Positions 20,609 through 64,000 of a stretch of 64,000 nt of DNA are shown here, one piece after another (positions within the stretch are counted from its first letter, which is position 1; every line of letters starts with the position of its first letter). Under the pieces are notes generated by a model that ran no database searches, was not told the origin of the DNA, and saw only the letters and a list, made by a program, of their open reading frames with translations. The position numbers and the translations under genes were made by a program. Source of the DNA: Pararhodobacter oceanensis (lineage in GTDB: Bacteria > Pseudomonadota > Alphaproteobacteria > Rhodobacterales > Rhodobacteraceae); NCBI RefSeq assembly GCF_003076755.1, contig NZ_QDKM01000003.1, forward strand, positions 124,001-188,000, in the 5' to 3' direction.

Positions 20609-20611
20609 GGC

Positions 20612-20696
20612 GCTGTCCCGCGCGTGGGACGGGTGCAGGATGTAGGGATATCAAGGGGTTAGTGTGTCGCGTTAAGGGGGTGTTAGGGATGATTGC
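20612..20696 (+). repeat. 85-bp palindromic element, copy 1 (islet edge)
   Basis: Contains GTCCCGCGCGTGGGAC (20615-20630) and GATATCAAGGGGTT (20647-20660), followed by a T/G-rich tail. A second copy lies at 63349-63433 with the same 32-bp spacing between the two blocks. Each copy starts about 5-7 bp after a core-gene stop and precedes AT-richer DNA. The stem could act as a terminator. Confidence 0.7.
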
Positions 20697-60894: not shown

Positions 60895-61590
60895 TCAGGC
60901 GTCCAGATTGCGCGACAGGAGGGTACCGAATTCATCGGCGAATTGCTCGTAGCCGCTGGCGATAGTGTCGCTGTCGTCGGACAGTTTGTTGTAAAAGATC
61001 GTCGCCGGGATCGCCGCGAGGAGGCCGAGTCCGGTGGCCAGCAGCGCCTCGGCGATGCCGGGGGCGACGACGGCGAGGTTGGTCGATTGCGCCAAGGCGA
61101 TCTCCTCAAAGGCGTTCTTGATGCCCCAGACGGTGCCGAAGAGGCCGATGAAGGGGCTGGCCGAGCCGACCGAGGCGAGGAAGGTCAGCCCCGCGTTCAG
61201 CCCCCGCGCCTCGCGGTCAATCGCCACATCCATCGAGCGGTCGATACGCTGCGGCGTGCCGGGGATCAGCGCGCCGTCCTGCCGATGCGAGCGTTGCCAT
61301 TCGGCCATACCGGCGGAAAACACCCGCTCCGGCCCGCTGCTGGGCGCGCCGCCAATACGGGCGTAAAGCTCATCCAGAGGCTCACCGGACCAGAAGGCGG
61401 TGTCGAATTCAGCGGCCTGCGCGCGGGCGCGGCGGAAGGTGAGATGCTTTTGAATGATGATCCCCCACGACCAGAAAGAGGCCGCGATCAGCAGGATCAT
61501 CACCAGCTTCACGGTGAAGGTCGCGCGCATGAACAGCGCTAGCAGCGAGAAATCAATATCGGCAGCATTCGCCAGCGTGGCGGTATCCAT
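60895..61590 (-). CDS. tolQ: Tol-Pal system protein TolQ
   Basis: MotA/TolQ/ExbB proton-channel protein of 231 residues with three membrane helices (about 17-40, 135-160, 170-195). Signatures: FWSWGIIIQKHLTF, GLTFLASVGSASPFIGLFGTVWGIKNAF and GIAEALLATGLGLLAAIPATIFYN. The ATG at 61590 lies 115 bp from ybgC. Confidence 0.95.
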   Translation of the reverse strand: MDTATLANAADIDFSLLALFMRATFTVKLVMILLIAASFWSWGIIIQKHLTFRRARAQAAEFDTAFWSGEPLDELYARIGGAPSSGPERVFSAGMAEWQRSHRQDGALIPGTPQRIDRSMDVAIDREARGLNAGLTFLASVGSASPFIGLFGTVWGIKNAFEEIALAQSTNLAVVAPGIAEALLATGLGLLAAIPATIFYNKLSDDSDTIASGYEQFADEFGTLLSRNLDA

Positions 61591-61705: not shown

Positions 61706-62110
61706 TTACGGTTTTCCGCCGAGTATGACAGTGATTTGAGCCAGTTCTGGCGGCAGGCGGCGCGGACGCCCGTCCAGCGACATCGCCACCAGCGTGGCGC
61801 GGGCCTTGAATAGGCAGGTTTCGGCGCGCCAGACCTGCTGCACCAGCACCAGCCGCGCGGGTGAGACCTGCGCGGCATGGGTGCGGACCTGTAGCTGCTC
61901 GTCCAGCCGCGCGGGGGCGAGGAAATCGGCCTCGATCCGGTGAACGGCGAACACGGTGCCGGCATCGCGCAGGGCGTTCTGGTCGATGCCCAGCGCGCGG
62001 ACCCAGTCGGAACGGGCGCGCTCGATGAATTTGAGGTAGTTCGCGTGGTAGACGATGCCGCCCATATCGGTGTCTTCGTAATAGACGGTGACGGGGAAAT
62101 GATGGGTCAT
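61706..62110 (-). CDS. ybgC: Tol-Pal system-associated acyl-CoA thioesterase YbgC
   Basis: Hotdog thioesterase of 134 residues, 4HBT type. Start 62110 gives MTHHFPVTVYYEDTDMGGIVYHANYLKFIERARSDW with the catalytic Asp in YYEDTDMGGIVYHANYLKF and the family Tyr-x-Asn-helix. Associated with the tol operon by conservation; YbgC in E. coli acts on short-chain acyl-CoA and interacts with phospholipid synthesis. A longer frame to 62965 runs through repeats and is not coding. Ribosome site AAGGCGCC. Confidence 0.93.
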   Translation of the reverse strand: MTHHFPVTVYYEDTDMGGIVYHANYLKFIERARSDWVRALGIDQNALRDAGTVFAVHRIEADFLAPARLDEQLQVRTHAAQVSPARLVLVQQVWRAETCLFKARATLVAMSLDGRPRRLPPELAQITVILGGKP

Positions 62111-62186
62111 AAGGCGCCTTCGGGTTGGGATGCGGCGGCAGGTTAGGGGGAAGTGATTGGGCTGGCAATCGGGGTGGCGGACGCGC

Positions 62187-62699: not shown

Positions 62700-63344
62700 A
62701 TGACCCCGATCAGCGTTGATATTGTCTCGGATGTGGTCTGCCCCTGGTGCGCCATCGGATATCTACAGTTGGAAAAGGCCTCGAAAGCCAGCGGCATTCC
62801 GATCGAGGTGCATTGGCATCCGTTTGAATTGAACCCCGATATGGCGCCCGAGGGCGAGAACCTTGGCGAGCATCTGGCGCGCAAATACGGCAGTTCGGCG
62901 GCGGATTCGGTGCAGACCCGCGAGCGGCTGGCCGGGTTTGGCGCGGGGCTGGGGTTCGCATTCAATTACTCCGACCAAAGCCGCATGGTGAACACCTTCA
63001 AGGCGCATCAATTGATGGATTGGGCGGCGGCGCAGGGCAAGAAACATGAGCTGAAGCTGGCGCTCCTCAGTGCCTATTTCGAGCAGCAACTGGATGTCTC
63101 GGATATCGAGGTGCTGGAGGAAAAGGCCGGCGAGGTCGGGCTGGAGAATGCGGCGGCGCGGGCGGTGCTGGAAAGCGGCGAGCGGGCGGAATCGGTGCGC
63201 GAAAACCAGCAATTCTGGACCAGCCGCGGCATTCAGGGGGTGCCGGCGATGGTTTTTGAACGGCAGCATCTGGTGACCGGCGCGCAGGGGGAGGAGAATT
63301 ACGCGAATATCCTCCAGCAGCTGGTTGATATGCGGGCGGCCTGA
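62700..63344 (+). CDS. DsbA/FrnE-family oxidoreductase
   Basis: Cytoplasmic thioredoxin-like protein of 214 residues of the DsbA/FrnE (2-hydroxychromene-2-carboxylate isomerase-like) family. IVSDVVCPWCAIGYLQLE contains the CPWC dithiol site; HWHPFELNPDMAPEG and the RMVNTFKAHQLMDWA helix are FrnE-like; GIQGVPAMVFERQHLVTGAQ has the cis-Pro loop (GVPAM). In Deinococcus, FrnE assists redox balance and disulfide metabolism. An 85-bp palindromic element begins 5-8 bp after its stop, followed by accessory DNA. Confidence 0.9.
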   Translation: MTPISVDIVSDVVCPWCAIGYLQLEKASKASGIPIEVHWHPFELNPDMAPEGENLGEHLARKYGSSAADSVQTRERLAGFGAGLGFAFNYSDQSRMVNTFKAHQLMDWAAAQGKKHELKLALLSAYFEQQLDVSDIEVLEEKAGEVGLENAAARAVLESGERAESVRENQQFWTSRGIQGVPAMVFERQHLVTGAQGEENYANILQQLVDMRAA

Positions 63345-63348
63345 GGGG

Positions 63349-63433
63349 GCCGTCCCGCGCGTGGGACAGGGTGCGGGACGAGTGATATCAAGGGGTTGGC
63401 TTGTTGGATTAGGGGTTTGTTAAGGGTTTTTGG
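63349..63433 (+). repeat. 85-bp palindromic element, copy 2 (accessory edge)
   Basis: GTCCCGCGCGTGGGAC (63352-63367) and GATATCAAGGGGTT (63384-63397), with the same 32-bp spacing as copy 1 at 20612-20696, then a similar TTA-GGG-TGTTA-GGG tail. It marks the step into AT-richer DNA. Confidence 0.7.
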
Positions 63434-63655
63434 GTGTTGGAGAGAGCCGGAGGTGTGGCGATACTGTCGGCCCAGAACGGACCTAGGTTAGGTGAACCAA
63501 GGCAGCAAAGCGACGGCACCATATACCGGACAATCAGGCAAAACCCAATTAGGGTGAAAAGCGTGGCAACATCGACTTTCTAAAGCTGTTATTATTTGTC
63601 ATTGTTCGGAAAGGATCGAAAAGAAGATCAAACCGCATAGAGAGTGTATTGAAAA
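63434..63655 (+). ncRNA. structured untranslated region 5' of a reverse transcriptase, candidate RNA
   Basis: About 220 nt with no convincing ORF. Contains small stems such as CCTAGGTT/AACCAAGG (63482-63502) and CCCAATTAGGG (63544-63554). An upstream structured RNA is characteristic of several defence-associated RT systems and of retrons, where it serves as template. I cannot prove this by eye, so it is a low-confidence candidate. Confidence 0.35.
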
Positions 63656-64000
63656 GTGCCCGGATTAGACAAAAAAGTGATTGATGATATCGACTGGGCC
63701 AAAGCTGTCCAGAATATCATTGTCGATAATCGTTCAGATTTCATACTCGCTCCGCACTTTGACATCATCTTTCGCGAAAAGAGCGAAGAGTTGAAGCAAC
63801 AACTCTCCTCGGCGCTCGGCGCGGGCGTTTATGAGCCTCAGCTTCCGATCCAAATGAGCGTACCCAAGCAAGGCATCCTTTCCCGCCCAGGAAGCATCTT
63901 GCTTCCTCAAGACCGGCTTCTGTACCAGGGACTTGTCGAAGATATACTCCCTCAATTGGAAGCTCAAATGGACAGGGGTAGAACGTTCAGCCACGTACCA
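63656..64000 (+). CDS. reverse transcriptase-like protein, 5' part (truncated by window end)
   Basis: Open frame of 115 codons that runs off the window with no stop and follows an in-frame TGA at 63650-63652. A GTG at 63656 is the first plausible start (VPGLDKKVIDDIDWAKA). The translation contains a run typical of RT N-termini: LPIQMSVPKQGILSRPGSI, LPQDRLLYQGLVEDI and then RTFSHVP. The VPK-x-RPGSIL and DRLLYQ-x-LV stretches match motifs RT1-RT2 of many group II-derived, Abi and UG-class enzymes. It has no ATG early, so it is easily missed. GC is clearly lower than in core genes. I cannot say which RT class from this fragment. Confidence 0.72.
   Translation, partial: MPGLDKKVIDDIDWAKAVQNIIVDNRSDFILAPHFDIIFREKSEELKQQLSSALGAGVYEPQLPIQMSVPKQGILSRPGSILLPQDRLLYQGLVEDILPQLEAQMDRGRTFSHVP

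Follow-up and report, generated by a model that had tools for sequence, protein, structure and literature searches.

Does an open frame that leaves the edge of a sequenced stretch after 115 codons belong to a working reverse transcriptase (RT), and if so, to one of which kind? The question arises at the end of the window, the whole stretch of 64,000 nucleotides from Pararhodobacter oceanensis that was analysed (G000:C3:124001-188000; the genome comprises 4.08 Mb in 32 contigs), where a plus-strand frame with a GTG start runs from 63656 to 64000 and is still open at the border. A first-pass annotation had read these 115 codons as a truncated defence-type RT, and the particulars that it gave are present: there is no stop in the window, no ATG occurs within the first 60 codons (the earliest in-frame ATG is codon 67), and the quoted peptides LPIQMSVPKQGILSRPGSI and LPQDRLLYQGLVEDI are found in the translation, within a conserved N-terminal block. 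The sequence of L009, which is identical to the window from 62000 onward and extends past its edge, carries the frame on to a stop at L009:3207, giving 516 codons in total (L009:1657-3207; window-equivalent 63656-65206), with codons 1-115 in the window. The GTG start is supported because the closest in-frame stop on the 5' side lies at 63650 and because the same GTG is found in a relative, L010, whose frame is open up to a TTG four codons farther 5'. A minus-strand frame of 86 aa that overlaps the RT frame is taken as a shadow of the gene.

At full length the gene encodes a complete, intact RT. Pfam placed RVT_1 at residues 118-269 (E 1.6e-14), with no other family above the cut-off, and this match and the YVDD motif both lie outside the window, 3' of its edge. 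Where the annotation had allowed for an early stop past 64000 or a missing xxDD motif, the frame runs on to window-equivalent 65206 and carries YVDD. Among PADLOC profiles, RT_UG20 (one of the UG RTs, described there as DRT) matched residues 1-516 over profile positions 1-511 of 511, with an E-value of 2.3e-205 and 681.5 bits, and the next best profiles were UG21 (2.8e-64, 215.7 bits), Drt8 (1.5e-50, residues 15-513) and UG22 (8.9e-49), with matches to UG17 (DRT10) and Drt3a also present. Drt8 is the best-scoring numbered Drt family, but at 171 bits it is not the best profile. Judged by these matches, the gene is a UG/DRT-type RT of the known, named group UG20; the suggestion that it could be a new member of such RTs thus stands insofar as it belongs among the UG RTs, but since its group already has a name, it is new in a weak sense only. 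A chance ORF was ruled out by the 516-codon frame and the full-length family match. NCBIfam reached no cut-off, its best scores being those of the group II maturase TIGR04416 (75.6 bits against 300) and Drt5 (74.2 against 550), with Drt2 at 25.8 bits against 390; retron, group II intron, Drt2-Drt5 and AbiA identities were accordingly rejected (8 families listed). UG groups were reportedly defined in one earlier survey. We found no study or phage test of a UG20 member in the open-licence literature, and the accessible part of the main text of PMC8934634 does not name UG20.

Alignment of the protein with seven relatives (8 proteins; L017 was left out because its frame changes) showed that D151 of motif A and D230 and D231 of YVDD are invariant in all eight, as are, in the N-terminal part, VPK and then RPGSIL.P.DR..YQ, with approximately 14 residues after the VPK motif missing in our protein, L010 and L023 and present in the five other aligned relatives. 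The RT_UG20 profile matches 8 of 8, and Pfam found in these proteins no family except RVT_1 with E below 0.05, the nitrilase/phosphohydrolase domain that is a feature of UG Class 3 being absent from each of them. The RT domain is N-terminal (approximately residues 1-270) and is followed by a C-terminal part (approximately 270-516). Searched alone, the six C-terminal parts tested all matched the C-termini of UG21, UG22 and UG23, and four of them also matched that of Drt8 (E<=1.5e-4). A profile search against solved structures returned a retron-type RT (2e-11), a group II intron RT (5.8e-11), AbiK (4.2e-9), UG15 (1.6e-4), which we take to be DRT4, and a designed alphaRep (E 0.016). Together with a weak Pfam HEAT_2 match in one of the eight proteins (E 0.06), a HEAT-like (alphaRep) C-terminus of UG20 is only hinted at; a single-sequence AlphaFold2 model of the L010 protein had a pLDDT of 40.1 and was unusable.

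The UG20 RT is rare in the family, where it was found at the set cut-offs in 3 of 394 genomes, our own counted, with 2 of 398 in the phylum sample and 2 of 385 in the class sample (own counted in each). Within its own genome no other RVT_1 match was found. Genome contigs, scanned in a way that can reach only close relatives, yielded one relative (L010, Pseudosulfitobacter koreensis, 92% identical), and 4 of 72,556 plasmid records cover 80% or more of the RT, of which L017, L018 and L019 were used and H4 (23.7% identity, 91% coverage) was left out. Matches turned up in 7 of 50,697 phage records, in no case over 80% of the protein, for which reason a phage-borne element was rejected; four scans of viral contigs gave 13 distant matches of approximately 77-108 residues, or none. 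The gene is foreign in composition, with a G+C content of 46% against 64-65% in its surroundings, and was most likely acquired horizontally. What L009 and L010 have in common at the DNA level is limited to the gene, the 112 nt that precede its start codon and 5 nt past the stop, and the surroundings are otherwise different. Differences between the two genes fall at codon positions 1/2/3 as 38/17/162, indicating that the RT gene is under purifying selection. Frames are intact in 8 of the 9 UG20 loci examined. The UG20 frame of L017, on a Rhizobium acidisoli plasmid (L017:5001-6552), changes between residues 163 and 164, which may reflect a pseudogene or a sequencing error.

Partner genes, for which the first-pass annotation had proposed a search, do not recur across UG20 loci. 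We compared 705 flanking frames of at least 60 aa from the nine loci (5 kb per side, or to the contig end) and found no recurring protein partner among them; at E 1e-5 a single match linked different loci, between two MATE-type transporters, 27% identical, 3' of the RT in L009 and L010, and it was taken as coincidence because the L009 copy is part of flanking DNA that the genus conserves. On this evidence UG20 seems to be a lone gene. Defence genes are found beside some of its members. In L019 the UG20 gene adjoins LmuA (6e-142) and LmuB (1.7e-171) of Lamassu, in L017 it adjoins SIR2, DarG and DarT, and L018 is annotated with toxin-antitoxin genes. Two settings are less clear: L022, where genes for a Dam methylase and a DpdB/DndB-like protein lie approximately 4.5 kb from UG20, and L021, with another RT, RES and HNH genes nearby. 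No defence gene was recognised beside our own RT, where two flanking proteins scanned with PADLOC gave no matches, nor among the ORFs listed for L020 and L010, where few flanking proteins were scanned; the one neighbour scanned in L023 had no match.

Some of these neighbours deserve a separate description. The product of L022:852-3248, a protein of 798 aa, weakly matches a Card1-like nuclease (E 4.8e-5, under the cut-off) and has a DndB/DpdB-like part; its gene is followed by a Dam-type methylase gene, the two lying approximately 4.5 kb and more upstream of UG20. The additional RT of L021 is a short frame (L021:2640-3434, 264 aa) approximately 4.3 kb upstream of UG20, best matched, if modestly (E 2e-15 and weaker), by CRISPR-RT and retron-RT profiles; on the opposite strand beside it lies a gene for a protein of 527 aa that neither Pfam nor PADLOC matched.

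If UG20 resembled Class 2 systems, its RT would copy a short ncRNA, drawn from the leader or from its own mRNA, into repetitive DNA. The Class 2 UG systems that have been studied rely on cis ncRNAs, according to PMC13174585 and PMC13275509, and the profile matches to UG17 (DRT10) and Drt3a also favor such a scheme. The sole upstream non-coding DNA that matches L010 in blastn is the 112-nt leader of the RT (63544-63655, plus strand). Over its whole length this leader drifts like silent sites, with 77 of 112 positions identical between our locus and L010 as against 355 of 517 third codon positions. In the stretch closest to the start, 34 of 45 positions are identical (76%, compared with 69% for third positions; the best of 50 shuffles gave 0.83), so that a very short RNA beside the start codon is still conceivable. 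Among the 36 pairs that can be formed from the nine UG20 loci, 14 match at the DNA level, and in all 14 the match consists of the ORF with at most 112 nt on the 5' side and at most 5 nt on the 3' side. The closest pairs, L009/L010, L019/L021 and L017/L023 (85, 81 and 78% identity), have 112, 14 and 0 nt of leader in common, and the 112 nt upstream of L019 and L021 are identical at 62 of 109 positions, inside the shuffle range. A silent-site scan of the UG20 ORF detected no unusually conserved stretch (P >=0.11 at all four widths), and Rfam gave no match at the locus.

The same comparison was applied to DRT2, the sole ncRNA system used as a positive control, whose RT binds a neighbouring ncRNA according to PMC12039810. 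Of the 10 pairs from five DRT2 loci, four match, and all four have 206-441 nt upstream in common: approximately 340 nt in L064/L065, approximately 440 nt in L066/L067, and approximately 206 nt in both L062/L064 and L062/L065 despite a protein identity of 53-54%. These upstream stretches presumably correspond to the ncRNA. Over the 200 nt upstream, L064 and L065 are much more alike than at their silent sites (180/200 vs 206/416), whereas L066/L067 is a weak control because its leader lies below third positions (163/198 vs 379/422) and because 130 nt of downstream DNA are also in common. A conserved cis-encoded ncRNA, the feature of UG Class 2, was thus not found for UG20, in which 0 of 14 pairs share a leader of more than 112 nt compared with 4 of 4 for DRT2, both being UG/DRT-type RTs; we consider the copying of a cis ncRNA by UG20 quite improbable.

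The template might instead be supplied in trans, with cellular or phage RNA or DNA being copied by a group II-like RT in which there is no self-templating. The matches of the palm to solved retron-type and group II intron RTs are consistent with this, but the group II maturase score falls far short of its NCBIfam cut-off and the full-length matches are to UG groups, and we regard a trans template as unlikely. That the gene descends from a retroelement, as a domesticated or decaying RT with no part in defence, is highly doubtful: the lack of a recognised defence gene beside our own RT and the frame change in L017 would fit a relic of this kind, but the strong purifying selection between our gene and L010, the intact frames at the other eight loci, the different surroundings with common DNA restricted to the ORF, and the defence-type neighbours of relatives all argue against it.

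Since neither a flanking RNA nor a partner was found, a self-sufficient, probably protein-primed polymerase is the best-supported model. We therefore favor, with a probability of roughly 0.55, the reading that UG20 is an intact, horizontally acquired single-gene defence RT which synthesises DNA without a cis RNA template and is probably protein-primed. Under this model the RT protein alone, probably as an oligomer, would polymerise dNTPs without a cis-encoded RNA template, and synthesis would start from a hydroxyl of the protein itself, as in Abi enzymes. Upon infection, the DNA product or an active state of the enzyme would accumulate, and phage multiplication would then be aborted. The antiviral function is one that we infer, and template-free, protein-primed synthesis, the oligomer and the trigger are likewise to be read as predictions.

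As described in PMC13174585 and PMC13275509, Class 1 UG RTs typically have an alphaRep domain, with those studied being template-free, and Class 3 UG RTs carry or associate with enzymatic domains. UG20 resembles DRT4, AbiK and Abi-P2 in that an RT domain is followed by a C-terminal extension, and it resembles DRT4, which along with DRT6 is a single-gene system (PMC13213688), in that no partner was found. It differs from DRT4 and AbiK in that the sequence match is weak, as seen in the structure-profile search. AbiK, a hexamer, and Abi-P2, a trimer, both prime on a tyrosine (PMC9508834), but the N-terminal priming tyrosine of AbiK has no invariant counterpart in UG20: among the 8 aligned proteins there is no invariant tyrosine in residues 1-89, the first being Y90. 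Hydroxyl-bearing residues that all eight proteins share are S27, S80, Y90, S112, S203, S225, Y228, Y233, Y303, Y381, Y384 and Y478. Besides the lack of such a tyrosine, the faintness of the HEAT-repeat signal, the higher profile scores of solved retron-type and group II RTs relative to AbiK and the lack of a recognised defence gene beside our own RT speak against the model. We tentatively entertain the idea that UG20 is a one-protein, RNA-free anti-phage polymerase in which the RT and C-terminal domains themselves prime synthesis and set the product sequence, using some priming residue different from AbiK's N-terminal tyrosine and a trigger that has not been described before. For Drt8, PMC13213688 reports anti-phage activity at the family level and a mechanism not yet established, and a review table (PMC10952713) assigns it a Cap17 effector, whereas UG20 is without a recurring partner.

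Many UG RT groups are without any studied member, and UG20 is compact, consisting of one 516-codon gene, and the DNA that it has in common between distant hosts is sharply bounded. The gene is ordinary in kind, yet a well-bounded test case for its group, for which the comparison predicts DNA synthesis without a cis ncRNA. Asking whether DNA identity between close pairs ends at the ORF may be an inexpensive way of separating ncRNA-bearing from lone-gene RTs, given controls beyond DRT2.

In its own genome the RT is one of two cargo genes of a junction beside tolQRA. The conserved flank is represented by a TolQ-like gene (MotA_ExbB; 60895-61590, minus strand), and the left border by the adjoining 4HBT thioesterase gene in the ybgC position (61706-62113, minus strand). 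Between this border and the RT lies a DsbA/FrnE-like accessory gene (62700-63344, plus strand), which is no recurring neighbour of UG20; the genome has another FrnE-like copy, 34% identical, on C4. The first-pass annotation had taken this 5' neighbour for a core gene, but it seems not to be one: matches at E<=1e-30 occur in 15 of 17 congeners, and even the closest is just 36% identical. Elsewhere in the genus, ybgC-tolQRA adjoins a pair consisting of a MatE gene and a gene whose 211-aa product has no match in Pfam. We compared stretches from 8 of the 17 congeners, seven of which span both sides (the eighth contig ends early), and the RT and the window's FrnE copy are absent from all eight (E 1e-8). 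The site extends from 62113 to window-equivalent 65295, and at its homologous counterparts (L053-L056 and L058-L060) the gap ranges from approximately 30 nt in L058 to 3.3 kb in L053. The cargo differs as well, with genes for an Xre/MbcA-type antitoxin and a RES-domain protein in L059, seemingly the same pair in L054 (judged by eye), and an HWE histidine kinase gene in L053. Taken together, the varying gaps and differing cargo identify the junction as a variable site, whose cargo here is the RT and the DsbA/FrnE-like gene next to it.

No repeats were found at the RT borders, and scanning for promoters and terminators was of no use, with 4 and 2 sites found where 2.1 of each would be expected. 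A dispersed intergenic repeat occurs at 63352-63438 and again at 20609-20688, beginning with the 16-base near-palindrome GTCCCGCGCGTGGGAC, of which the genome holds 14 exact copies, whereas the reversed control pattern has none with at most one mismatch. A 1-kb query over the repeat at 63352-63438 found 14 places, its own included, and in the seven copies compared the similarity extends over 52-87 bases, often with TATCAAGGGGTTRGC.
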